This document shows, piece by piece, positions 10,776-24,373 of a stretch of 24,470 bases of DNA. Source of the stretch: a virus; the IMG/VR virus record IMGVR_UViG_3300030044_000077, positions 1 through 24,470 of that record. The stretch is one strand, 5' to 3'. Each line of letters opens with the position of its first letter. Positions within the stretch are counted from its first letter, which is position 1. Both the position numbers and the translations under genes were made by a program. The notes under the pieces were generated by a model. That model ran no database searches. It was not told the DNA's origin and saw nothing but the letters and a program-made list of their open reading frames with translations.

Positions 10776-11351
10776 TTAGCTAAGATCGACGTCTCCAGAT
10801 GTTCCTGCTTGGAATGAATCATCGTATGCTAGAATTCCTACGAATGATAAACGATCAACGAGGATACCTCGCTTGTTAATACCAGCTGATTTACGATTGA
10901 AACGGCAATCAGTGATGGTGATTACTGCACCACTTGTAGGAGCTCCTGAATTGGTCTCAGCAGGTGAGGTCGTTGCTGGGTTACCAGATTGAATTTTTTG
11001 ATACACGTTTAAATCCCAAGTTTGAGACACAAGGATATTTCCTGGATTGATCTCATCTGATGCATTACCACCAGTTTTGTAATTTACGTTACCAAGACCG
11101 TTACCGTTTACTGCGGCTCCAGCCATGTTGTTCTTGTTAGCGATACCAGTGTAACGAACTACTGAAAGTTCGCCAGCTACTGAGTAGTTAACCGGTTCGT
11201 TTGACACCGCTTCGTAACGACCCATTGTCTCGATCGGTACTGTGTCAACTGAGACGTTATAAGAAACGTCTGCTGCGTATGCAAACGTAACACCGCCTGC
11301 GGTAATTTTGGCGTTGGCGCCTGTGATAAAACTTGGTAATTTGCCTGCCAT
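10776..11351 (-). CDS. Major tail tube protein
   Basis: A 191-aa protein, first of three tube-like genes after the sheath, and the best candidate for the abundant tube subunit. It begins MAGKLPSFITGANAKITAGG and has GRYEAVSNEPVNYSVAGELS at about residues 43-62, the hallmark stretch of this tube type. It has its own expression signals: AAGGATA about 5 nt before the ATG and a strong terminator after the stop. The 87-nt region upstream is AT-rich and could hold a promoter (TATATT near 11428), but this is not certain. The sheath gene, usually its direct neighbour, is displaced by the endonuclease insert. Confidence 0.87.
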   Translation of the reverse strand: MAGKLPSFITGANAKITAGGVTFAYAADVSYNVSVDTVPIETMGRYEAVSNEPVNYSVAGELSVVRYTGIANKNNMAGAAVNGNGLGNVNYKTGGNASDEINPGNILVSQTWDLNVYQKIQSGNPATTSPAETNSGAPTSGAVITITDCRFNRKSAGINKRGILVDRLSFVGILAYDDSFQAGTSGDVDLS

Positions 11352-11438: not shown

Positions 11439-11930
11439 TTAGGTTAACTTATTAGACTTGGCTATGTTCTCAAGAGCAGGCAAATACTGAAGATTCCAGG
11501 GTACATGTAGCCCAGACACTATTGAGTTCTTTAAAGGGATAATGTGATCAACGTGATGACCAGGTGGACAGTTGTTATAAATAAGCTTTAAAGCCTCATT
11601 ATCTACCCACTCAGGAGTAGCCATAAGCTTCTTGGCCCTATGTTTTGCTTCTCTATGTTTTTGAGACGCTAACCATGTTTCTCTATTAACTACTTGATGT
11701 CGCTGCTCGTATTCTTTTCTTTTGCCTGGATTAGCTTTAAGATAAGCTTTTCGTTCTTGATTACAGATGTCTCGTCTCTTACTATCTCTAGCATATCTAT
11801 AACACCTACGACAAGTAGGTCCTGAGTACCATTTATCAGTCTCTGCAGTGCTGCAACTAATACAAGTTTTAGTCAAGGCTCCACTGTCCATTTTTAGCAA
11901 TTTTAACTGGCTGTTTATATTTTTCAGCAT
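11439..11930 (-). CDS. HNH endonuclease with N-terminal zinc finger (probable homing endonuclease)
   Basis: A 163-aa protein. Residues 23-43 have a four-Cys metal site (C23-x2-C26 ... C40-x2-C43). A Lys/Arg-rich helical linker follows, then the HNH module near the C terminus: H-H-V-D-H-I-I-P-L at about 125-133 and an H-x3-W-N-L-Q-x-L stretch, ending KSNKL. This arrangement is common in free-standing phage HNH homing endonucleases. It sits between sheath and tube, which are normally adjacent, so it looks like an intruder. It overlaps the 256-aa gene upstream. An internal ATG at 11891 (residue 14) is an alternative start; neither has a Shine-Dalgarno. Confidence 0.82.
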   Translation of the reverse strand: MLKNINSQLKLLKMDSGALTKTCISCSTAETDKWYSGPTCRRCYRYARDSKRRDICNQERKAYLKANPGKRKEYEQRHQVVNRETWLASQKHREAKHRAKKLMATPEWVDNEALKLIYNNCPPGHHVDHIIPLKNSIVSGLHVPWNLQYLPALENIAKSNKLT

Positions 11931-12719: not shown

Positions 12720-15560
12720 TTAAGCGCTTGAAGAAGCACGTTGCAACGTGATAGTTGCTAATACGAAGTCGATACCTTCGACAAGTTTCACTACAACAGA
12801 GATGTTGATAGTGTTACCAACGATTTGAACAACTAGTAGCTTGTATCCGTTAGTAGCATCAGTTGTTGAAACGGTGATACCTTGTGCCAAGTAAGAGGTC
12901 AAGATGGCATCGCAGGTTGACTTAACTTCTGCCGCAGAAACAGTGTTCTTAACACCAACATAGATATTCTCTAATTGGTTGCGGAAGTCGTAAGCAAGAA
13001 CGTCTGCTGCGTATTGAACGTTACCACGGTTGAGAACCCAGTTTGCATCCTGACCGTAAGTAGTGTTATCTACTACTAAGCGGAATCCGCCAGTGTTAGG
13101 ATGTTCCCAGAAAGTGATACCGTTTTGGATCGCGTTATCATACTGAGTAAGTGGGTTGAAACCTTGAACGATGTTCGCTTCAGGAGTTGACAACAATTGA
13201 GCAGTCTGACGAATGCCTGACATGTTGAAATACTTGTGAGTCATCGGTAAACCGATTGGTGAACCACCGCGAGCACCTGCTAGTAAGCAAGCTCCTGCCC
13301 AAGGTAGGAACCATTGAACAACGCCCTGAGAGTTAACTTGGTTAATATCTTGAATGACCAATTGCACACGGCTGTTAGCCAAGTTTTGAGCTTGGTTTAC
13401 GCAGTTAGAATATGTGTCTTTCAATGACAAGTAACCTTGGCTCTCTGAACGATTCTTAGTAGAAGCCATCAAGCTTAAGTAGGTCACTGTAGCTTGTTGA
13501 ATACCAAGGATAGTGTAGTTAGAGCTTGGATCAGTGATCATGTCCTGAATATCTTGAGTAGCGTTACGAGAGAACAACGGAATCACTGAGTTAACGTGAA
13601 CGGCTTGTAAAGCAGTCAACGCGTTGGTGATATCAGAGGTTTGTGTTCCACCGAGTAATCCGCCAGCTAAGTAAGTAGTTGCAGATGGATCAGGTAAACC
13701 GATAGAAGCAGGAGTTAACAAGCTTACGTTTACTGACGATCCAAAGAATTGCTGTACAGAGTAAGCATCATCTTTGATTTGAGCAGGCATAGACCCGCTA
13801 GAACCGTTAGCACTTAAGTTAGTAACTTCATCCATTACACTTGGGTTTAATTGACCGTACAATGCGCTTGGTACTGCTGCACTCCAGTTTCCGCCAGTGC
13901 TGCTGTTAATGTAATTAGCAATAGCATTGAGGGTTGGGAAGTTTGCGAGAGCGATTGTGTACTCAATGGCACTGTTGTTAATTAACAACATGTTTGTAGC
14001 ATTCACTGTAACTACTGGAGCAACTCCACCGTTACGACCAAGTTCAAATACGATGTTACCACCGACTGTCGCTGATTCCTTGATATTAGTGCCGTTGTTA
14101 TTGATAGTAATAACAGCCATATCTTCGGTTTCAGAAACGTATAAACCAGGTTGAATATTTACTGGAGCAAGTAAGCTTCCGCTAACAAGCTGAAAGTTTA
14201 AACCGTGTCCATTGCGCTGAGGGTTAGTTCCCAACGATTGAGCAATGTTTAAAAACGCTGCCATGTCTGAGCCGCCGGATACTGTGAAAGTCATTCCAGA
14301 AGGAAGACCTAATGACCAGTTTCCTGAAGTAGTAAGAGCAGTTTGAAACAATGCTCTTGTAACAGTACCGCTAGGCATTGTGAACACGTTGTCAAGCGCA
14401 GATGATGCTCCGTTGATACGAAGAGTAAATGATAAGCTGCCGCTTGCGACGATAGTTGCTGGAGAACCAAAGCCGGTTGCAGAAGTACCAGGACTTACGC
14501 CCACGTTACCGTGGAATACGCTTGCGCCGGTGTTAGTAGCTGCTGAACCACCTAATACTGAGAAACTACCTGCTGCGCCAAGTTCGTTTGAAGATTGAGC
14601 AAATACGTTAGCTGCTGCACTCATAGTAACTGCGCCGTTGAGGGCGATCAAGCTACCGTTTACTGTGCCACCTAATGTATCTGTAATACTTGTTTCAGCG
14701 AGGATGTTACCTTGGAAGGTGCCTGAGAAACCAGAGTTGATAGTTGCAGAAGAACCTACGATCCAGTAGATGTTAGCTGCTGTAGCTCCGCCAGTAAGCG
14801 TCATTACAGGAACTCCACCAGCACCAGTAGTTAAGGTAGAAGCAGTTTGGATTACGTAAGTACCTGCACCGTTGAAGGTAAGGGTTCCAGTTCCAGAAGC
14901 CGCTAAGGTTGCTGCGCCAGTGCTATAAACACCAGGAGTAAGAGTTTGACCATCTAAGGTTGCAGAGATAGGAGTTGCAGTTTCAGTACCTAAGGTAGTG
15001 AAAGCAGTTGATGCATCAGATTGAGCTTCTTGAGCAAGTGCGTCATTCAAGTGTGGAGATCCGCTGACGATTGCGTCAAATGGAGCACCAGTTAAATCGA
15101 ATGGAGCTGAAGAAGTTGTTTGAGCAAATTGAGCTGGAACAGCAACATCTGCGTAAGTGATTTGATTTCCATTAGTTCCATAAACACTTGACTGCAAACT
15201 TCCGTAGCTGTTAGCTAGCGCAAGTGTTGCTCGTGTAGAAGCGTTTGTCTTGTAGATGTAAACAGATTGTGCTCCACCTGGGATCGCTCCGTCTGCACCA
15301 GGTGCAAACAAGAACGTACAAGCGTCGACAAGCGGTCCAGATCCGTAGATACTACGAATCATTGGAAGCTGATCAGCTTGGAAAACGTTTTGTGAAATGT
15401 CAGGAACTGCAGAACCTGGTGCACCCGCGGTTGATTCACCGAAGATGGCAACTAAGCCTGTTGGTCCTACCGGGAAACCGCCGCCAAGGTCTATTAATTC
15501 CTTAGAGTAAGCTCCTGGCTTGTAAATTGTAGCGCCGTTAAATTGTACGTTGATTGCCAT
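12720..15560 (-). CDS. Tail sheath protein with an inserted circularly permuted DUF3494 domain
   Basis: A 946-aa contractile sheath subunit, long for this family. The N terminus MAINVQFNGATIYKPGAYSK and following GPTGLVAIFGES match the sheath entry segment. The C-terminal 300 residues hold the conserved sheath core (QWFLPWAGACLLAGARGGSP, ITFWEHPNTGGFRL, ADVLAYDFRNQLENIYVG). Residues about 168-375 are an extra beta-solenoid domain of ice-binding (DUF3494) type, placed after a sheath-like A-P-F-D-A-I-V-S-G-S segment. A further strand-rich part spans about 376-560. The gene has the best ribosome binding site in the window (TAGGAGG, 6-7 nt before the ATG) with a TATAAT box 34 nt upstream, and a strong terminator after it, as expected for an abundant protein. 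Confidence 0.92.
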   Translation of the reverse strand: MAINVQFNGATIYKPGAYSKELIDLGGGFPVGPTGLVAIFGESTAGAPGSAVPDISQNVFQADQLPMIRSIYGSGPLVDACTFLFAPGADGAIPGGAQSVYIYKTNASTRATLALANSYGSLQSSVYGTNGNQITYADVAVPAQFAQTTSSAPFDLTGAPFDAIVSGSPHLNDALAQEAQSDASTAFTTLGTETATPISATLDGQTLTPGVYSTGAATLAASGTGTLTFNGAGTYVIQTASTLTTGAGGVPVMTLTGGATAANIYWIVGSSATINSGFSGTFQGNILAETSITDTLGGTVNGSLIALNGAVTMSAAANVFAQSSNELGAAGSFSVLGGSAATNTGASVFHGNVGVSPGTSATGFGSPATIVASGSLSFTLRINGASSALDNVFTMPSGTVTRALFQTALTTSGNWSLGLPSGMTFTVSGGSDMAAFLNIAQSLGTNPQRNGHGLNFQLVSGSLLAPVNIQPGLYVSETEDMAVITINNNGTNIKESATVGGNIVFELGRNGGVAPVVTVNATNMLLINNSAIEYTIALANFPTLNAIANYINSSTGGNWSAAVPSALYGQLNPSVMDEVTNLSANGSSGSMPAQIKDDAYSVQQFFGSSVNVSLLTPASIGLPDPSATTYLAGGLLGGTQTSDITNALTALQAVHVNSVIPLFSRNATQDIQDMITDPSSNYTILGIQQATVTYLSLMASTKNRSESQGYLSLKDTYSNCVNQAQNLANSRVQLVIQDINQVNSQGVVQWFLPWAGACLLAGARGGSPIGLPMTHKYFNMSGIRQTAQLLSTPEANIVQGFNPLTQYDNAIQNGITFWEHPNTGGFRLVVDNTTYGQDANWVLNRGNVQYAADVLAYDFRNQLENIYVGVKNTVSAAEVKSTCDAILTSYLAQGITVSTTDATNGYKLLVVQIVGNTINISVVVKLVEGIDFVLATITLQRASSSA
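14436..15059 (-). other. DUF3494 (ice-binding-like) domain, circularly permuted, inside the sheath
   Basis: Sheath residues about 168-375. The first part reads LNDALAQEAQSDASTAFTTL, then TLTPGVYSTGAATLA, FNGAGTYVIQTASTLTTGAG, IYWIVGSSATI, GTFQGNILAETSITDTLGG and NGSLIALNGAVTM, which is the middle and C-terminal part of DUF3494. It is followed by LGAAGSFSVLGGSAATNTG and HGNVGVSPGTSATGF, which in ordinary DUF3494 proteins is the N-terminal part. The family order is thus rotated. Both insertion joints carry IV-(A)-SGS (DAIVSGS before, TIVASGS after). Confidence 0.85.
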
Positions 15561-18884: not shown

Positions 18885-19700
18885 TCATCTTTTAACTATA
18901 CTTTCACCTTGATTAGGTAAGAAGTCTCTTTTTACTAGAATCTGTTGAGGAAGGCGTCTGGCGACCTTCTGCCCGTTAGCATTCATCTCTTGAGTAACTC
19001 TAAGCTCTCTTAAAGACTGAATCACCTGATATACAGGATTAGCATAGAAGGACCATGTAAGAACTTCACCGTGCTGACTTTGATAGTTGTACATAGGCTG
19101 CTTTCCATCTACCCACACTATGAGGCCCTCTGCGTCGATGTTGAAATCAACTCCTTGGGTATATATCTTCTCTGTCTGCCCGTTATTTAAAATCGAAGCG
19201 GCGCGATCTACCTTCTCGATAGGGTATCTAAGTTCTTGCGTATTGCCGGGTCTTGGCTCATACTCCTTAAGTTCCCATAGGCGTACTGTAAAGTCAGGGA
19301 TCACAAGTTTGTCGAACATATTAAAATCTGCTTCTGTACCGTCTGGATATTCGGTTGGAAAGGTTATTACAGCAGTACCGATTTCCCACACACCGTGAGC
19401 TTCAAAGGTTTTCTGCATTGAGTTGCCTGTAAATGTTCCCCAGATCTCTTTTGGATCGTAGTGGATGAAACCATTAGTATCGCAGAACGGACAGTCGGGT
19501 ACGTGAGCATTATTGTCTACAGTTAGGATGTTAGGACATGGAGCCGCTTTAGAGTGAATGAAGCGAATTCCACGTTGACTTAGTAAGTCATCGAAACTTT
19601 GACCTTTGATGCTAAAATCTGGGTTATAAAGAGGCATCTCACTAGGTGTGGAAGCCGGACTTCTAGTTGGATATACTTGCTTTGGTTTATCTTCAGCCAT
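18885..19700 (-). CDS. Head completion / neck structural protein with Cys cluster, 271 aa (probable)
   Basis: First gene of the minus-strand tail block. Residues about 43-90 read RGIRFIHSKAAPCPNI, then C-P-F-C-D-T-N-G-F-I-H-Y-D-P-K-E-I-W-G; with the Cys in APCPN this gives at least three cysteines for a metal site (C-P-x-I ... C-P-F-C). The rest is strand-rich (GTAVITFPTEYPDGT, FDKLVIPDFTVRLWELKEYE, QELRYPIEKV). Proteins of this layout are found in neck gene clusters of large myoviruses as virion structural proteins. A TATAAT box sits 6 nt before the ATG and no Shine-Dalgarno is present, so the transcript may be leaderless. Exact role inferred from place. Confidence 0.75.
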   Translation of the reverse strand: MAEDKPKQVYPTRSPASTPSEMPLYNPDFSIKGQSFDDLLSQRGIRFIHSKAAPCPNILTVDNNAHVPDCPFCDTNGFIHYDPKEIWGTFTGNSMQKTFEAHGVWEIGTAVITFPTEYPDGTEADFNMFDKLVIPDFTVRLWELKEYEPRPGNTQELRYPIEKVDRAASILNNGQTEKIYTQGVDFNIDAEGLIVWVDGKQPMYNYQSQHGEVLTWSFYANPVYQVIQSLRELRVTQEMNANGQKVARRLPQQILVKRDFLPNQGESIVKR

Positions 19701-19781: not shown

Positions 19782-20030
19782 ATGGATGAGATATCGATAC
19801 TAGAGCGGATTGTCGCTGAAGAAGGTAGCTGTTGCTGGGCAACGCCTGCCATCTGTGCCATCTGTCCACTAGGTAAGCTAATACGATATGAAAGTGGAAG
19901 ATATCTGAGCTGTATAGAAGCTTTAAACATAGAAGGACTCAGTGAAGAAGAAGCTGATGCAAGGTATAAAGAGGCCGCAACCCGTAAACTTGCAGACCTC
20001 ATGATCAATAAGATTATAGAGGCCGACTAA
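19782..20030 (+). CDS. Small Cys-rich protein A, 82 aa
   Basis: Begins MDEISILERIVAEEGSCCWA and contains C-x-x-C-P-L-G (AICAICPLGKLI), with another Cys at SCIEAL. A helical tail ends LADLMINKIIEAD. The next gene has the same plan (E-x-I-V-x-x-x-G-[ST]-C ... C-x-x-C-P-[FL] ... C), so the two are tandem paralogues. The Cys spacing suggests a small zinc or iron-sulphur site, which is inference. AGGGA lies about 10 nt before the chosen ATG. The frame stays open upstream into the divergent 271-aa gene, but that part is only its antisense. It shares one base with the next start (TAATG). Confidence 0.7.
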   Translation: MDEISILERIVAEEGSCCWATPAICAICPLGKLIRYESGRYLSCIEALNIEGLSEEEADARYKEAATRKLADLMINKIIEAD

Positions 20031-20269
20031 TGGCACTCAAAGAGCAAGAGAAGAATGTACTGGAAGAGATCGTAACCTTGAACGGTACATGCATGCTAAA
20101 AGCTAGGTGCGACAAGTGCCCGTTCAGAGTGATGTGCTTACCAGAGTGGGTTTACCCGAATCCTCCAAGTCAGGAACAAAGACTTAAGATGGCCCAAGAC
20201 GTGTTAACGCACCACGGGCTACTGGACGAAGATACGGATATAGAAGAATTTAAATGGGACAAAAATTAA
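20030..20269 (+). CDS. Small Cys-rich protein B, 79 aa (paralogue of A)
   Basis: Starts MALKEQEKNVLEEIVTLNGT and carries C-M-L-K-A-R-C-D-K-C-P-F-R-V-M-C at residues about 21-36, a compact four-Cys site. The C terminus is acidic. It lines up with the 82-aa protein over the first 35 residues. The start is coupled to the previous stop by TAATG. Its 3' end overlaps the 37-aa ORF. Function unknown; metal binding is suggested by Cys spacing. Confidence 0.72.
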   Translation: MALKEQEKNVLEEIVTLNGTCMLKARCDKCPFRVMCLPEWVYPNPPSQEQRLKMAQDVLTHHGLLDEDTDIEEFKWDKN

Positions 20270-20367
20270 ATACAAAGCCTGTAGATAGAGTGGCTCAAGA
20301 TGCAGCCAAAGTGAAACTTTATATGTTTATGATGAAGTTGCTTTACGGTTTACCGAACGCTTTTTGA
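20254..20367 (+). CDS. Micro-protein, 37 aa, plus strand
   Basis: The ATG lies inside the last codons of the Cys-rich B gene (overlap 16 nt), and the stop lies inside the 3' end of the opposing 88-aa gene. The protein ends in a hydrophobic helix, VKLYMFMMKLLYGLPNAF, which loosely resembles the shared L-x-x-[LIF]-L-x-K-L helix of the neighbouring minus-strand micro-genes. There is no strong Shine-Dalgarno (GAAGAA upstream). Short length makes it less certain than its neighbours. Confidence 0.5.
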   Translation: MGQKLNTKPVDRVAQDAAKVKLYMFMMKLLYGLPNAF

Positions 20368-20606
20368 AGAGCTGCCAACGATGCCGGATCTAATAGTAGT
20401 TGATCTGGTCTTCCAAATTGATTTAGTGACGCTCGTAAGATTCTGTCTTCCCATGGATCTATAGCGGCTTGTGCTGATTTAATATTCAGCTTACCTAACA
20501 ACTTGCAAAGCTTTTCTTGTACTTTATAGTCATCCATTGTCATTATTTCAGATTCTCTCATCTCTTTTATATGTTCTTTGAGGTACTCTTCGTACTCTTC
20601 CATCAT
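20343..20606 (-). CDS. Micro-protein family member, 87 aa (last of its operon)
   Basis: Carries the shared helix as EKLCKLLGKLNIKSAQAA at about residues 31-48, after an acidic helical N terminus (MEEYEEYLKEHIKEMRES). The K-L-N-I-K-S-A run is close to K-L-N-F-K-S-A in the 48-aa gene two positions upstream. The C-terminal part reads DPWEDRILRASLNQFGRPDQ and is not recognised. The ATG at 20606 overlaps the TGA of the 34-aa gene (TGATG); a GTG one codon earlier, at 20609, is also possible. The 3' end overlaps the plus-strand 37-aa ORF by 25 nt, tail to tail. Confidence 0.7.
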   Translation of the reverse strand: MMEEYEEYLKEHIKEMRESEIMTMDDYKVQEKLCKLLGKLNIKSAQAAIDPWEDRILRASLNQFGRPDQLLLDPASLAALQKAFGKP

Positions 20607-20710
20607 CACGGGTTTCTATCTATCCAAATAAAATATGCTACGATACCTATTATAATAAGACCGTACAGAGACAAGAATGAGTGTGCAACTATTAGATCAG
20701 CGCCAGTCAT
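20606..20710 (-). CDS. Single-span membrane micro-protein, 34 aa
   Basis: Starts MTGADLIVAHSFLSLYG, then a membrane helix L-I-I-I-G-I-V-A-Y-F-I-W-I, ending DRNP. Positive and polar ends fit a single-pass inner membrane peptide. It is held between two micro-genes by overlaps at both ends (ATGA with the 48-aa gene, TGATG with the 87-aa gene), and AAGG lies 5 nt before its ATG. This coupling is the main reason to believe it. Function unknown. Confidence 0.62.
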   Translation of the reverse strand: MTGADLIVAHSFLSLYGLIIIGIVAYFIWIDRNP

Positions 20711-20853
20711 AAAACCTTATTTAAATCCTCGGCACTCTTGAAATTTAGCTTGCGTAGAAAGCCGATCAATACATCTACAGAGTGAGTCTTTGTTATCGTC
20801 GTAAAGTATGGGTGACCTTCATCGTACAGTAGGTAAAGTATTCTTCTCTGCAT
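20707..20853 (-). CDS. Micro-protein family member, 48 aa
   Basis: Two predicted strands (RRILYLLYDEG and YFTTITKTH) are followed by the shared helix SVDVLIGFLRKLNFKSAEDL at residues 24-43. It is the first gene of a three-gene set (48, 34 and 87 aa) with a TATAAT box exactly 6 nt before its ATG and no Shine-Dalgarno, suggesting a leaderless transcript. Overlaps the 34-aa gene by ATGA. Function unknown. Confidence 0.65.
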   Translation of the reverse strand: MQRRILYLLYDEGHPYFTTITKTHSVDVLIGFLRKLNFKSAEDLNKVL

Positions 20854-20859
20854 CTAATG

Positions 20860-20865
20860 ATTATA
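20860..20865 (-). promoter_or_regulatory. TATAAT promoter, probably leaderless, for the 48-34-87-aa operon
   Basis: The minus strand reads ctagtgTATAATcattagATG, gap 6 nt. Confidence 0.6.
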
Positions 20866-20902
20866 CACTAGCACGTTTGAGAAGCTCCCCACCCCTCCAT
20901 AG

Positions 20903-21043
20903 TTAAAACATAGTTCGATATGGGTTGATGTTAAGTTTTTCTAAGAATTGTCTCAGTACGAATCTGCGCGTCCATGATTCTCCTGGACCGTAACAACCCG
21001 GTACGCGTATTATTGCACCATTGAAACTAATATTTATAGCCAT
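20903..21043 (-). CDS. Micro-protein, 46 aa: sheath-like N terminus plus shared helix
   Basis: The first 18 residues, MAINISFNGAIIRVPGCY, match the tail sheath start MAINVQFNGATIYKPGAY at 12 of 18 positions. The rest carries the shared helix FVLRQFLEKLNINPYRTMF at residues 28-46. AGGAG lies 5 nt before the ATG, one of the better ribosome binding sites here, and the start overlaps the end of the 61-aa gene by 17 nt. No other sheath region is present. It may act as a sheath mimic or have arisen by duplication of the sheath 5' end; chance is not excluded. Confidence 0.68.
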   Translation of the reverse strand: MAINISFNGAIIRVPGCYGPGESWTRRFVLRQFLEKLNINPYRTMF

Positions 21044-21212
21044 GGCGACTCCTGTAGAATTCTTTATAATGATCTGTTAGTGGAGATACTGGATATACCC
21101 TATACTCATAAGTCATAAGTGGATACATGTCGAGTTTGCCTAGAAGCATAAGTAGATTGAACCAAACTTTACTTCGTTCATCATCCTTACCTTTTATTAT
21201 CACTCTTTCCAT
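21027..21212 (-). CDS. Micro-protein family member, 61 aa
   Basis: A short strand (MERVIIKGKDDERSK) is followed by the shared helix VWFNLLMLLGKLDMYP at residues 16-31, then an aromatic strand-like tail (YEYRVYPVSPL, EFYRSRHGYKY). It is expressed from its own TATAAT box 6 nt before the ATG, with no Shine-Dalgarno. The 3' end overlaps the 46-aa gene by 17 nt. Function unknown. Confidence 0.68.
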   Translation of the reverse strand: MERVIIKGKDDERSKVWFNLLMLLGKLDMYPLMTYEYRVYPVSPLTDHYKEFYRSRHGYKY

Positions 21213-21218
21213 AAATGG

Positions 21219-21224
21219 ATTATA
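21219..21224 (-). promoter_or_regulatory. TATAAT promoter, probably leaderless, for the 61-aa gene
   Basis: The minus strand reads cgagtagTATAATccatttATG, gap 6 nt. It directly abuts the stop of the 95-aa gene. Confidence 0.58.
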
Positions 21225-21512
21225 CTACTCGCCAGAACCAGGGAACTCGTCGGCGTATTCAGAGGTCGTGCGATGCGGCGGCTTAGCCCAGTTGCGTCTA
21301 GCCTGTACACCCTCTGGCTTCGGGTGCTTGCCCTGTCCAAAGCTGTGAAGCGACCCTTGGGTACCGCGATCTTCTCTGAGCTGTCCATCGGCTGTAGAAG
21401 TCGAGTAGCTCTTGAACGGTCTGTTGTTTGGAGTTCCTTCATCCTTCGGCGGGTTGCCATAAGACTTATGTAAGTCCCACTGTCCACCTGAGTTGAATGT
21501 TAAGTATTCCAT
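21225..21512 (-). CDS. Hydrophilic hypothetical protein, 95 aa
   Basis: Starts MEYLTFNSGGQWDLHKSYGN and is then Gly, Pro, Ser, Lys and Arg-rich without clear secondary structure (KPPHRTTSEYADEFPGSGE at the end). It lacks the shared helix of its neighbours and has no membrane segment. It has its own TATAAT box 6 nt before the ATG. A competing minus-strand frame at 21200-21487 lacks any start signal and is taken as a shadow. Function unknown; it looks intrinsically disordered. Confidence 0.6.
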   Translation of the reverse strand: MEYLTFNSGGQWDLHKSYGNPPKDEGTPNNRPFKSYSTSTADGQLREDRGTQGSLHSFGQGKHPKPEGVQARRNWAKPPHRTTSEYADEFPGSGE

Positions 21513-21518
21513 AATAGA

Positions 21519-21524
21519 ATTATA
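21519..21524 (-). promoter_or_regulatory. TATAAT promoter, probably leaderless, for the 95-aa gene
   Basis: The minus strand reads aagtgaTATAATtctattATG, gap 6 nt. The TGA stop of the 53-aa gene is immediately before the hexamer. Confidence 0.58.
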
Positions 21525-21686
21525 TCACTTACTGAGCTTGGCTTTTGGCCGCTTGAAACCGCTGCTGTAACTGTACCAAGGCGTATCTCTGTGCTTATTA
21601 ATCTTATGAATAAGATACAAAAGCTTATACGTTGGCGTCATACTCTTGAATAAAATATCTGGGCAACCGCACTCTTGATACTTCAT
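21525..21686 (-). CDS. Micro-protein family member, 53 aa
   Basis: Last gene of the six-gene chain that begins at 22538. It starts MKYQECGCPDILFKS, with a C-x-C pair, then the shared helix TPTYKLLYLIHKINKHRDTP at residues 17-36, and ends in a basic tail (FKRPKAKLSK). The ATG overlaps the 50-aa gene's TGA (ATGA). Function unknown. Confidence 0.62.
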   Translation of the reverse strand: MKYQECGCPDILFKSMTPTYKLLYLIHKINKHRDTPWYSYSSGFKRPKAKLSK

Positions 21687-21835
21687 GTCTGCACCGGCGG
21701 CCGATGAAAGAAAGTAAGCAAATCCCTATGTTTGGCCGGCACGAGGTTCAACTTCAAGAGTAGTGTAAAAAGGGCCGCCCTCGCCTTAGTTGGAGATGAA
21801 GTATCAGTGAATGTAAGTTCTCTATGGTAGCTCAT
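21683..21835 (-). CDS. Micro-protein family member, 50 aa
   Basis: A strand (YHRELTFTDTSS) is followed by the shared helix ARAALFTLLLKLNLVPAKHR at residues 18-37, a textbook copy of the L-x-x-L-L-x-K-L-N-L signature, and a short tail. It is coupled at both ends by ATGA overlaps, to the 72-aa gene before and the 53-aa gene after. Function unknown. Confidence 0.63.
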   Translation of the reverse strand: MSYHRELTFTDTSSPTKARAALFTLLLKLNLVPAKHRDLLTFFHRPPVQT

Positions 21836-22050
21836 GGTTTTGGTCCTGGGCGCATCCGCCTCATAAATACGTTTAAAGACATCTCGTTACTCTTATGTAT
21901 GTCGAGCAACATCAATAGGTCAAGCAGCCTCTGCTGCGAATGTCTCTTATTCTGCTCATGCCTCAAAGCATTTCTTCCTCTTTCCATCTGTACTATAAAC
22001 CAAATGAATGCAAATAATACTATAGCTGACGCCACTCCATATAACATCAT
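21832..22050 (-). CDS. Membrane-anchored micro-protein family member, 72 aa
   Basis: An N-terminal membrane helix (YGVASAIVLFAFIWFIVQM, residues 4-22) is followed by a basic region (RGRNALRHEQNKRHS) and a variant of the shared helix, QQRLLDLLMLLDIHKSNE, at residues 39-56, here with L in place of K. The positive residues after the membrane span suggest the helix faces the cytoplasm. Coupled by TGATG upstream and ATGA downstream. It links the membrane peptides of this cluster to the helix family. Confidence 0.68.
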   Translation of the reverse strand: MMLYGVASAIVLFAFIWFIVQMERGRNALRHEQNKRHSQQRLLDLLMLLDIHKSNEMSLNVFMRRMRPGPKP

Positions 22051-22181
22051 CAGTAGGGTAACTCCAGCATCGTATGATATATATTCAATCTGTGTAGAAG
22101 CATAAGCAAAGCGTACGTGTGTTCATGTACCTCAATAATCTGGTCAGTGCTCTTGCGGTGGACTAAGTGTATAGCAATCAT
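22050..22181 (-). CDS. Micro-protein family member, 43 aa
   Basis: One of the shortest family members: strand IAIHLVHRK, strand QIIEVHEH, then the shared helix YALLMLLHRLNIYHTM at residues 24-39. This compact beta-beta-alpha order may show the minimal fold. It is rich in His. It overlaps the 76-aa gene by ATGA and the 72-aa gene by TGATG. Function unknown. Confidence 0.62.
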   Translation of the reverse strand: MIAIHLVHRKSTDQIIEVHEHTYALLMLLHRLNIYHTMLELPY

Positions 22182-22408
22182 GGTATGAAACTTACAGCCA
22201 CTATCTTCCCGCTATGCGGTAAGACGTGTTCCAAGGCTAATGTAGTTATCGGTGGGGTTGGCCACTGGTATAGCTTAGCTAAGAAGCGCATGAGTGTATT
22301 CTTCGCGCGACGCTGCTTCATCGTACGATCATATTGCTCACGGAAACTATCAGAGGTGGTGGGCACTATATTATTCATTTGGCCAGCAGTGCTCGCTATC
22401 GACGACAT
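22178..22408 (-). CDS. Micro-protein family member, 76 aa
   Basis: A hydrophilic N terminus leads to the helix KNTLMRFLAKLYQWPTPP at residues 36-53, a divergent copy with Y-Q in place of N-I. The tail is strand-like (GKIVAVSFIP). AAGGAG lies 7 nt before ATG 22408, inside the end of the 55-aa gene, with which it overlaps by 38 nt in another frame. This clear ribosome binding site supports the start. Function unknown. Confidence 0.68.
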   Translation of the reverse strand: MSSIASTAGQMNNIVPTTSDSFREQYDRTMKQRRAKNTLMRFLAKLYQWPTPPITTLALEHVLPHSGKIVAVSFIP

Positions 22409-22538
22409 AGAGACACTCCTTCCCGCCTAGAAGCTTACGCTCGCAGTGGTCGGCATGACAAGTCCAGCCTGAGTGAGACTGAATGCCAGGGTCTACGCCG
22501 GTCGGTATGAGTAGCAAAAATAACAAGAGAAACTTCAT
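22371..22538 (-). CDS. Secreted four-Cys micro-protein, 55 aa
   Basis: A short signal-peptide-like start (MKFLLLFLLLIPTGV) is followed by a polar region with four cysteines (at about 27, 32, 42 and 51) and several His and Trp (WTCHADHCERK, GGKECLYVV, EHCWPNE). Two disulfides or a metal site are possible outside the cytoplasm. There is no lipobox. A TATAAT box lies exactly 6 nt before the ATG, and it starts the six-gene micro-operon. It lacks the shared helix. Function unknown; secretion is inferred. Confidence 0.62.
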   Translation of the reverse strand: MKFLLLFLLLIPTGVDPGIQSHSGWTCHADHCERKLLGGKECLYVVDSEHCWPNE

Positions 22539-22544
22539 TGGGCA

Positions 22545-22550
22545 ATTATA
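22545..22550 (-). promoter_or_regulatory. TATAAT promoter, probably leaderless, for the six-gene micro-operon
   Basis: The minus strand reads gatgagTATAATtgcccaATG, gap 6 nt. The stop of the 51-aa gene (TGA, 22554-22552) is one base before the hexamer. Confidence 0.6.
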
Positions 22551-22551
22551 C

Positions 22552-22707
22552 TCATCGATGTATCCCGAGCAATACGAGTAGGCGAAACAAGTGTACGTAC
22601 CTCACGTCGTTACCCAGCTCGTACAATTTGTCGTCATGCAAGAAGCCCGTTTGCATGCGGCTAGTGAAGAGGTCAGGGCGATACTTATTGAGCGGTCGAA
22701 TGTTCAC
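22552..22707 (-). CDS. Micro-protein family member, 51 aa (GTG start)
   Basis: The GTG start overlaps the TGA of the 88-aa gene (GTGA), the same coupling geometry as the ATGA joints elsewhere. A later ATG at residue 18 is an alternative. The C terminus is a variant of the shared helix, VRYVHLFRLLVLLGIHR at residues 35-51, with L-G in place of K-L-N. The frame ends one base before the next promoter. Function unknown. Confidence 0.55.
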   Translation of the reverse strand: MNIRPLNKYRPDLFTSRMQTGFLHDDKLYELGNDVRYVHLFRLLVLLGIHR

Positions 22708-22970
22708 GGTACGCTCTTGAAGTTGAGCTTCCTCAAGATGTTGGTGAGCACAGGGTAGCCATCTCGGTGGGTGTGATAGGTCAAGAGGTTATCAACCTCG
22801 CGCGAGATTTCGCCCTGAAGGTATGAAGCCGTACCAGCTTCAATTCGTTGACCCCAGAGCTTATGGATTTGGCACTGGATTACCTCTTTGACGGCTGGTA
22901 CGAGGCATAGGGGCATGTCAGGCGCGATACTTACATTAACCGTGTGACCTGTCATTGTGATTGTAACCAT
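22704..22970 (-). CDS. Micro-protein family member, 88 aa
   Basis: The longer N-terminal part has strands at the start (MVTITMTGHTVNVSIAPDM) and a helical middle (AVKEVIQCQIHKLWGQRIEA). The C terminus is the shared helix DGYPVLTNILRKLNFKSVP, residues 70-88, with K-L-N-F-K-S as in the 48-aa gene. It shares one base with the 89-aa gene's stop (TAATG). No known family recognised. Confidence 0.72.
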   Translation of the reverse strand: MVTITMTGHTVNVSIAPDMPLCLVPAVKEVIQCQIHKLWGQRIEAGTASYLQGEISREVDNLLTYHTHRDGYPVLTNILRKLNFKSVP

Positions 22971-23239
22971 TATGCTAACTCCAGCTTGTGAAGGAACCAG
23001 AGTAGGTTCAGGTATGGCGAGTCGTGATGGATCGTAATGAAGGATGTCGTGTAGTTATGCTCTTGAGTACCGTTCCAGTTGAGACCGCACTTGGAGCGAG
23101 TCATAGTTATAAAGCGGGCGAGTAGTGCGTGCTCGTTGCCGGGTACCTTGGCAGTGAAGCGCCAATCGTGGAAGGGTTGGGCGTTTGGCAAATAACTTGT
23201 GCCGTTAGAGATATGAACTGCAGGAGCGTATCTGGCCAT
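22970..23239 (-). CDS. Micro-protein family member, 89 aa
   Basis: Strand-rich, with polar loops (FHDWRFTAKVPGNEHALLAR, then YTTSFITIHHDS), and ends in the shared helix DSPYLNLLWFLHKLELA at residues 73-89. It lies first in a three-gene set (89, 88 and 51 aa) after a TATAAT box 7 nt before the ATG. Local GC content is visibly higher than in the tail genes. Function unknown. Confidence 0.72.
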   Translation of the reverse strand: MARYAPAVHISNGTSYLPNAQPFHDWRFTAKVPGNEHALLARFITMTRSKCGLNWNGTQEHNYTTSFITIHHDSPYLNLLWFLHKLELA

Positions 23240-23246
23240 AATTTAT

Positions 23247-23252
23247 ATTATA
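23247..23252 (-). promoter_or_regulatory. TATAAT promoter, probably leaderless, for the 89-88-51-aa operon
   Basis: The minus strand reads ttcagTATAATataaattATG, gap 7 nt. The TAA stop of the 53-aa gene overlaps the hexamer. The segment TATAATATAAATTATG is identical to the site at 23703. Confidence 0.6.
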
Positions 23253-23409
23253 CTGAAATGCGTACTGGTACCGTGAAGAACCTAATAGGTGTGCGGTCGC
23301 ATGTGTGGATGTGTGGGATACCAGGAGCGGTGAGGTGTGGGGCAATGCTGAGTTTAAATAAGAATTTAAACAGTGCGCCGGTGGAGCGCTGGCAGACGCA
23401 GGGTTTCAT
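23248..23409 (-). CDS. Micro-protein family member, 53 aa, Cys-rich start
   Basis: Begins MKPCVCQRSTG, then the shared helix ALFKFLFKLSIAPHLTA at residues 12-28, then a strand-rich tail with His and one more Cys (IPHIHTCDRTPIRFF, VPVRISV). The ATG shares one base with the 47-aa gene's stop (TAATG). A longer form starting at 23466 exists in the same frame, but it would overlap the 47-aa gene by 58 nt without start signals. Confidence 0.63.
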   Translation of the reverse strand: MKPCVCQRSTGALFKFLFKLSIAPHLTAPGIPHIHTCDRTPIRFFTVPVRISV

Positions 23410-23552
23410 TAGTAGAGCACCGTGACGATGTTGAGCTTGTATAGGATGGAGACGAGTGCGTGCCACTGGGGCGTAGACTGGATGACGTGGCCAGCGGCAT
23501 TCCAGTAGGTAGGGTCGGCTGTGTCGTATACGTAAGCGCGAGCAGATCTCAT
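23409..23552 (-). CDS. Micro-protein family member, 47 aa
   Basis: Strands RAYVYDTAD and GHVIQSTPQ are followed by the shared helix WHALVSILYKLNIVTVLY at residues 30-47. This is a clear beta-beta-alpha copy with a consensus K-L-N-I. The start overlaps the 48-aa membrane gene (ATGA) and the stop overlaps the next start (TAATG). Function unknown. Confidence 0.63.
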   Translation of the reverse strand: MRSARAYVYDTADPTYWNAAGHVIQSTPQWHALVSILYKLNIVTVLY

Positions 23553-23695
23553 GATGACCTCAGGAAGATGTTGACGAGTAGCGCAGCGGTGAGCGCTTGT
23601 AGTGCGATGGTGAGGGTGAAGGCATGTGGACCGATGAGCACAATGACGAAGGCGAATGATAGGCTGATGTCAAATGGTAATTTGCGAAGTTTCAT
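23549..23695 (-). CDS. Two-span membrane micro-protein, 48 aa
   Basis: Starts MKLRKLPFDI, with positive residues, then two hydrophobic stretches (SLSFAFVIVLIGP; AFTLTIALQALTAALLVNIF) around a Gly-Pro-His turn, ending LRSS. It is a likely hairpin in the inner membrane. It is the most upstream gene of the micro-gene block, with a TATAAT box 7 nt before the ATG. It overlaps the 47-aa gene by ATGA. Small hydrophobic proteins of this kind in phages can be holins or exclusion factors; no evidence here chooses between them. Confidence 0.62.
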   Translation of the reverse strand: MKLRKLPFDISLSFAFVIVLIGPHAFTLTIALQALTAALLVNIFLRSS

Positions 23696-23702
23696 AATTT
23701 AT

Positions 23703-23708
23703 ATTATA
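23703..23708 (-). promoter_or_regulatory. TATAAT promoter, probably leaderless, for the 48-47-53-aa operon
   Basis: The minus strand reads ttttcgTATAATataaattATG, gap 7 nt. The 16 bases from hexamer to ATG are identical to those at 23247. Confidence 0.6.
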
Positions 23709-23770
23709 CGAAAACAAGTACTGGTACCTGTTGAACCTATTAGAAAATCATATTCCCACCGAGTTCGCGC

Positions 23771-23869: not shown

Positions 23870-24373
23870 ATGAAGATAACAATGATTATGGCTTTGGTAT
23901 TGCTCAGCGCATGCGGTCGTCCTGGTCCCAGCGGAATCGCTGGTCCTGCTGGTCATGATGGAACAAACGGGTCGAATGGTACTGATGGGATTAATGGAAC
24001 GAATGGCACGAGCTGTGGAGTGAGTGATGTCCCTGCTAATGCCGCTGCTCCTAACGGTGGTAGTCTTATCACCTGCGGGAATACACAGAGTTTGGTATTG
24101 AATGGGACTAACGGGTTGAATGGATCTAATGGAACAGACGGCACGAATGGGACGAGCGGAACAGTAGTCGCTCCCATCCAGTTCTGCAGCGGGTCTGGCT
24201 CGTATCCCTCGACCTTCCCTGAGGTTGGGTTCTGCATCGGTGGTAATATCTACGCGGTATATAGCGCTAACGGTGGGTTTCTCACTGAGGTATTGCCTGG
24301 GACTTGGAGCTCTGATGGGATCAACTCATCATGCACGTTCACAGTAGGTCCTGACTGTAAAGTAACTAGATAG
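23870..24373 (+). CDS. Collagen-like lipoprotein, 167 aa
   Basis: A short lipoprotein signal MKITMIMALVLLSAC has the lipobox L-S-A-C, with Cys at residue 15; Gly follows as the +2 residue. Residues 16-46 are a run of Gly-x-y triplets (GRPGPSGIAGPAGHDG, then G-T-N/G-S-N/G-T-D repeats), and a second run near residues 78-98 repeats this. Between and after them lie compact segments with paired cysteines. Such collagen-like lipoproteins occur in bacterial genomes; in a phage they suggest a surface-displayed accessory protein, for example blocking receptors against other phages. That function is inferred. It is on the opposite strand from the micro-gene block. Confidence 0.78.
   Translation: MKITMIMALVLLSACGRPGPSGIAGPAGHDGTNGSNGTDGINGTNGTSCGVSDVPANAAAPNGGSLITCGNTQSLVLNGTNGLNGSNGTDGTNGTSGTVVAPIQFCSGSGSYPSTFPEVGFCIGGNIYAVYSANGGFLTEVLPGTWSSDGINSSCTFTVGPDCKVTR

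Follow-up and report, generated by a model that had tools for sequence, protein, structure and literature searches.

The phage tail tube triggers the bacterial defence sensor DSR2, for which the small phage protein DSAD1 competes with the tail tube of its own phage (PMC11087589). Capsid protein, and even a short capsid peptide such as the Gol peptide of T4, is detected by some bacterial defences, among them CapRel, which is triggered by capsid protein (PMC9712102), and capsids are also sensed by a TIR-based system (PMC11312562). Reconstitution of nicotinamide adenine dinucleotide (NAD+) by phages counters NAD+-depleting defence (PMC12774641). Tab, a protein encoded by a Pseudomonas prophage, blocks the tail assembly of other phages via the tape measure protein, and an anti-Tab partner exists (PMC10884400). 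The stretch considered here, IMG/VR record IMGVR_UViG_3300030044_000077 (24,470 bp, analysed at full length and called the window), comes from a contractile-tailed phage (tail sheath PHROG 279) and is probably a fragment. At 20343-23552 it carries a minus-strand array of microproteins which share one short helix motif, and in this phage and its relatives some of these microproteins carry, beside the helix, a piece resembling a virion protein. A constant module would here be combined with exchangeable parts taken from virion proteins. Immune systems sensing capsid and tail proteins are known, but to our knowledge no phage has been described whose strategy relies on a collection of virion-protein pieces.

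The strict form of the motif, L-x-x-[LIFMV]-[LIFMVY]-x-[KR]-[LI]-[NDSE]-[ILFMV], is found by regular expression, independently of the family profile, in 10 minus-strand open reading frames (ORFs) within 20343-23552. When residues are shuffled within the 25 ORFs that the minus strand has between 20.3 and 23.7 kb, a mean of 0.02 matches and a maximum of 2 are obtained in 20,000 trials, and the strict pattern occurs in none of the plus-strand ORFs and in no other window ORF of up to 150 amino acids (aa). A position-specific profile adds ORFs 21832-22050 and 22552-22707, which brings the total to 12. A preliminary description of this DNA had proposed that fourteen neighbouring ORFs share the helix, that the pattern should be enriched over shuffled micro-ORFs, that the codons differ among copies so that the likeness is kept at the protein level, that one copy (located here in 21832-22050) is fused to a membrane span and that the family would be conserved in related phages. 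All but the first of these points are borne out here and below; twelve of the fourteen ORFs stand (ten strict, two by profile), and the remaining two, 21525-21686 and 22178-22408, hold doubtful, looser copies below the profile threshold.

The family extends far beyond the window. A search with the 271-aa virion protein encoded beside the array returned 45 related viral contigs, and in the closer relatives the same type of cluster lies beside the gene for this protein and often elsewhere in the contig too. Raw counts at a profile score of at least 13, which include some shadow ORFs, reach 39 and 38 helix ORFs in two 176-kb contigs (G005 and G002), 24 in G004 (85.6 kb) and 13 each in G001 and G006. 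Without ORFs that overlap larger genes there are 158 helix ORFs on 14 related contigs, with 28 each in G005 and G002; these profile counts derive from members that also built the profile and are therefore not independent, as the regular-expression counts in the window and the contig G014 are. The members have a median length of 66 aa and fall into orthologous groups found across contigs. Each contains exactly one helix (a second copy is present in 0 of the 158), whose first residue lies anywhere between positions 5 and 104 of the protein, with 1 to 76 residues after the helix. The consensus reads L-x-x-[LF]-L-x-[KR]-L-[GND]-[IV], and often x-S-A comes directly after it. The G/N/D plus hydrophobic residue at the end of the motif looks like a helix C-cap, and an AlphaFold2 model of ORF 20343-20609, of modest confidence (predicted local distance difference test, pLDDT, 69), ends the helix at this site. 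Between them the 158 members use all six Leu codons where Leu is invariant; selection therefore acts on the protein, and this free variation rules out a DNA- or RNA-level cause of the motif.

No member of the helix family occurs among 282 small ORFs of SPO1 (first 40 kb scanned), in the scanned stretches of Mx1 (80 kb) or in contig G012 (135 kb), and the contigs L021-L045 (330 kb) hold one helix ORF. Among 52 members scanned, none matches PHROGs at 0.01 and one has a single marginal match in Pfam-A, which agrees with the earlier remark that no described family has such a layout; no Pfam or PHROG family fits, and the modular design of helix plus virion piece was found in no known family. Two members (the VTGKD and ERLRV types) give no tblastn match in named phages, and the AlphaFold2 model of the ERLRV type (pLDDT 70) has no significant match in a fold search of the PDB. 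An origin of the helix in larger phage proteins was also considered and rejected, as the few matches are at about shuffle level or unconvincing. A small conserved protein (IDKIDV...HKELIALFYRIEL) with a variant of the helix always adjoins the array, at G005 94289-94432, G004 45195-45401, G001 29035-29277 and in four more contigs, in some of which its N-terminus forms a membrane span.

The variable segments lie before or after the helix, and in the array beside the virion genes several of them resemble virion proteins, which is seen in both directions of search. With the helix masked, hidden Markov models (HMMs) of the phages' own larger proteins were run against the microproteins alongside reversed and shuffled controls; capsid residues 46-82 reach 26.8 bits, sheath residues 1-20 reach 20.3, capsid residues 230-266 reach 16.7 and tail tube residues 9-36 reach 14.2, with all controls at or below 8.2. 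In the reverse search, with HMMs built from the micro-families, the sheath scores 34.9 bits, the tube 24.8 and the capsid 33.5 and 17.6; the micro-families were picked after inspection, so the bit scores describe likeness and are not a blind test. Of 9,118 small ORFs lacking a clear helix, only three score at least 8 bits for virion pieces, and two of the three belong to the array and have a helix that has diverged, at G010 38287 (tube) and G002 176173 (sheath). The window itself holds a sheath-like N-terminus in ORF 20903-21043, 72% identical to sheath N-termini over 18 aa by BLAST, and a capsid-like end in ORF 20343-20609, where residues ~54-85 resemble residues 236-266 of the major capsid protein (capsid HMM 11.8 bits; nine aligned members in related contigs). 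Neither a full-length sheath nor a full capsid fold is present. Of the sheath (PHROG 279) only residues 1-20 are found, in proteins of 44-89 aa, and of the HK97-type capsid fold (~480 aa, SPO1 gp6.1 type) only segments ~46-74 or 236-266; the tube-like pieces correspond to tail-tube residues ~7-37. The preliminary description had remarked on a beta-beta-alpha layout, and this fits because the sheath and tube pieces should, judged from sequence and families, be beta-hairpins.

These pieces are exchanged between otherwise orthologous genes. On one backbone, CSCP followed by ~17 residues and LFxLLHKLLH, G005 (97170) has capsid residues, G002 (176173) has the N-terminus of the sheath, and both G001 (30843) and G004 (42471) have that of the tube; in G005 and G002 the backbone is preceded by a related microprotein. 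G014, an independent 146.7-kb phage contig from a metagenome-assembled genome (MAG) of Cytophagales that lay outside model building, encodes an 89-aa protein with a sheath-like N-terminus, a single helix and then a tube-like segment; it scores 18.0 bits with the tube HMM and 14.9 with the HMM of the sheath micro-family, and reversed controls stay at or below 8.5. A neighbouring gene carries the capsid 236-266 segment. The sheath piece of window ORF 20903-21043 is identical to the phage's own sheath at 10/15 aa and shares 0/9 codons with it, and the sheath-like piece of L111 likewise keeps the residues with 1/9 codons shared, whereas the G004 sheath piece is identical at 13/15 aa and shares 11/12 codons. 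Old pieces have therefore been maintained as protein sequence, and one piece at least is recent.

The ORFs of the array are listed in Table 1 together with the neighbouring virion genes. Adjacent ORFs in the window share 1-4 nt where they overlap. Of 179 helix ORFs, 17 have a TATAAT-like hexamer 4-9 nt upstream of their ATG, compared with 62 of 5212 other small ORFs. The position of the hexamer points to leaderless transcripts for the first gene of each group, and together with the overlaps it lends indirect support to the predicted expression of the helix ORFs. The 36-nt repeat listed in the table has a second copy at 23693-23728 on the minus strand, and similar elements lie upstream of array genes in G004 and G005; it is probably a shared promoter for leaderless mRNAs. 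The N-terminus MQRRILY is common to ORF 20707-20853 and G005 96231-96413. ORF 23409-23552 and its ortholog bear a weak likeness to a phage metallophosphoesterase at its N-terminus (IYFTSDPHYWHAN; E 0.018) and may represent a non-virion mimic.

Table 1. Microprotein array, promoter-like repeat and virion genes of the window
Position	Strand	Feature	Basis or remark
10776..11351	-	tail-tube cluster protein	family resembles tube-like pieces of related phages; window microproteins without tube piece
12720..15560	-	tail sheath protein, 946 aa	PHROG 279; source family of sheath-like pieces
18885..19700	-	virion structural protein, 271 aa	PHROG 1004; conserved landmark adjoining the array
20343..20609	-	helix ORF, 88 aa, LCKLLGKLNI (residues 34-43) then capsid-like segment	profile match
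20606..20710	-	34-aa ORF, membrane span, no helix motif, 4-nt overlap with each neighbour	
20707..20853	-	helix ORF, 48 aa, LIGFLRKLNF, TATAAT just upstream	profile match
20903..21043	-	helix ORF, 46 aa, sheath-like residues 1-19 then LRQFLEKLNI	BLAST
21027..21212	-	helix ORF, 61 aa, LLMLLGKLDM, TATAAT just upstream	profile match
21225..21512	-	95-aa ORF within array, without helix, TATAAT just upstream	
21525..21686	-	53-aa ORF, doubtful helix LLYLIHKINK	below profile threshold
21683..21835	-	helix ORF, 50 aa, LFTLLLKLNL	profile match
21832..22050	-	helix ORF, 72 aa, N-terminal membrane span then LLDLLMLLDI, position 7 without Lys	profile match
22050..22181	-	helix ORF, 43 aa, LLMLLHRLNI	profile match
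22178..22408	-	76-aa ORF, doubtful helix LMRFLAKLYQ	loose regular expression only; below profile threshold
22552..22707	-	helix ORF, 51 aa, C-terminal LFRLLVLLGI	profile match
22704..22970	-	helix ORF, 88 aa, C-terminal LTNILRKLNF	profile match
22970..23239	-	helix ORF, 89 aa, C-terminal LLWFLHKLEL	profile match
23237..23272	-	promoter-like repeat: GGTACC element, TATAAT, ATG of next ORF	36-nt repeat, 86% identical
23248..23466	-	helix ORF, LFKFLFKLSI; start probably the ATG at 23409, giving 53 aa	profile match
23409..23552	-	helix ORF, 47 aa, LVSILYKLNI; ortholog L111 11813-11956	profile match

Among the virion genes, the product of 10776-11351 is taken as the tail tube from its position, size and sheath neighbourhood, the capsid protein is homologous to the SPO1 major head protein gp6.1, and a 2363-aa virion protein is identified as Baseplate_J by Pfam. 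The tail sheath contains an Ice_binding domain (DUF3494 antifreeze-type) at residues ~163-315 (Pfam 4e-33; PDB 6eio 5e-27), which looks like an insert because the sheaths of some relatives have ~735 aa. A putative HNH endonuclease, read from its sequence, lies among the tail genes (11439-11930, minus strand). Two small Cys-rich, paralogous-looking proteins are encoded on the plus strand at ~19782-20269, in convergent orientation to the virion genes, and are conserved at this site in G005; at the outer end of the array a predicted collagen-like protein with G-x-N-G-T repeats and a lipoprotein-type signal is encoded at 23870-24373, also on the plus strand. The window has no megablast match among named phages. 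A scan of bacterial genomes with the 271-aa virion protein gave no match, and a scan with the capsid protein found three Bacteroidota MAG contigs (Saprospiraceae, Cytophagales and Flavobacteriaceae) at 67-77% identity; because capsid relatives occur in these contigs the hosts of these uncultured phages are probably Bacteroidota, tentatively so since the contigs are binned.

The reading preferred here, with a probability of about 0.5, is that the microproteins are modular adaptors which join a shared docking helix to an exchangeable part that mimics or binds a target. The helix would serve as a docking module for one common partner, to which it is reasonable to infer that all members dock, and the variable part would select or mimic the target, which in the virion-derived set would probably be something that binds virion subunits, most likely a sensor by which host defences detect the tail tube, the capsid or the sheath, with the microprotein as decoy or recruiter, and failing that the subunits of assembling virions. 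At odds slightly short of even, phages may keep pieces of their own or their relatives' virion proteins as exchangeable baits on the constant docking helix, refreshed by copying structural genes, to disarm host sensors or to control virion assembly. The preliminary description had imagined a common docking helix on varied effectors. The common helix is upheld, and 'varied effectors' is an incomplete account: several variable parts are virion pieces, exchangeable between orthologous genes, and this changes the likely function.

The helix-rich phages also carry a nicotinate/nicotinamide phosphoribosyltransferase, a phosphoribosyl pyrophosphate (PRPP)-synthetase-like protein and a macro-domain protein. 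The NAD+ salvage-like cluster lies at G005 128695-131685 and G002 130973-134415, and in both contigs the phosphoribosyltransferase gene has its end overlapped by a helix ORF. A presence/absence search for a phage-encoded hub returned the NAD+ salvage cluster and other genes, with no clear helix-binding candidate among them.

Several observations weigh against the adaptor reading. The pieces are short and several single matches are weak; that of the Baseplate_J protein in the reverse search (10.5 bits, its own reversed control 4.6) does not reach the highest reversed control among all models (12.2, the tube model). The baseplate-like micro pieces carry only an ETD..LR.RI signature, and the two members tested have no Pfam match. 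Most family members carry no recognisable virion piece, and decoying of virion sensors therefore cannot be the role of all. At 48 nt the sheath pieces are too short to tell an origin in the phage's own gene from one in a relative's. In Mx1 the NAD+ genes are present and the scanned stretches hold no helix ORF; the NAD+ link is therefore context, not proof. Finally, no partner of the helix was found.

Alternatively, the microproteins may act on virion assembly itself, their pieces inserting at the site of the real segment and thereby capping, timing or poisoning the assembly of the phage's own or of co-infecting relatives' virions, with the helix recruiting a common factor. The source proteins polymerise, the same segments are always used, the array adjoins virion genes, and Tab shows that blocking of tail assembly is a real strategy (PMC10884400). 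Such a role is nevertheless rather doubtful. Pieces that closely resemble a protein of the phage itself would also hit its own assembly, the piece sets differ among phages in a way ill-suited to an essential assembly role, and the members without virion pieces would go unexplained.

Plain re-use of hairpins for fold-building is a serious rival, if an unlikely one. The array would be a nursery of new small genes in which hairpin-coding segments of well-expressed virion genes are joined to the helix as a stable mini-fold, and the likeness would reflect ancestry, not function. The hairpin-like appearance of the sheath and tube pieces suits this idea, as do the recent G004 copy, dated by its codons, and the helix DNA of 22050-22181, which is 74% identical to that of 21027-21212 over 31 nt. 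Yet sheath-like residues persist in the window and in L111 despite changed codons, and the same few segments recur, one capsid segment being placed after the helix in at least nine contigs.

A short amphipathic helix common to otherwise different proteins is the typical look of cargo-loading helices, and the shared helix could accordingly be a packaging or localisation tag which brings the microproteins into the virion or a compartment. This is improbable, as the helix is held at no fixed terminus and larger virion proteins have no copy of it above chance. Chance likeness from Leu-rich composition and a loose pattern, a concern for short ORFs first listed by eye, has practically no standing: it is refuted by the motif counts (10 observed against 0.02 expected, none on the other strand), and control phages have almost no copies and orthologous groups span contigs.

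The helix family would be a large undescribed superfamily with tens of genes per phage, whose products are small enough to escape common gene-calling cut-offs. If the helix has one partner, its identification would suggest a role for dozens of orphan genes in each phage.

Among described systems, the host-takeover cluster of SPO1, a distantly related contractile-tailed phage, is likewise a dense cluster of small genes and differs in having no helix family in the first 40 kb scanned. Cargo-loading helices and capsid targeting sequences are alike in that one short helix takes different proteins to one place; they sit as a rule at a protein terminus, whereas the helix of the microproteins may sit anywhere. 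Tab resembles the assembly alternative as a phage-encoded protein acting on the virion assembly of other phages, but is one protein for which no virion-piece modules or common helix are described. DSAD1, compared by description only, is like the proposed action of the tube-bearing microproteins in its competition for a sensor, and unlike them it is described as a single inhibitor, with no array, no common helix and no virion pieces that can be exchanged. In the case of CapRel and the Gol peptide, a comparison again by description only, the known parts are sensors and triggers, and the microproteins would be the answer to such sensors.

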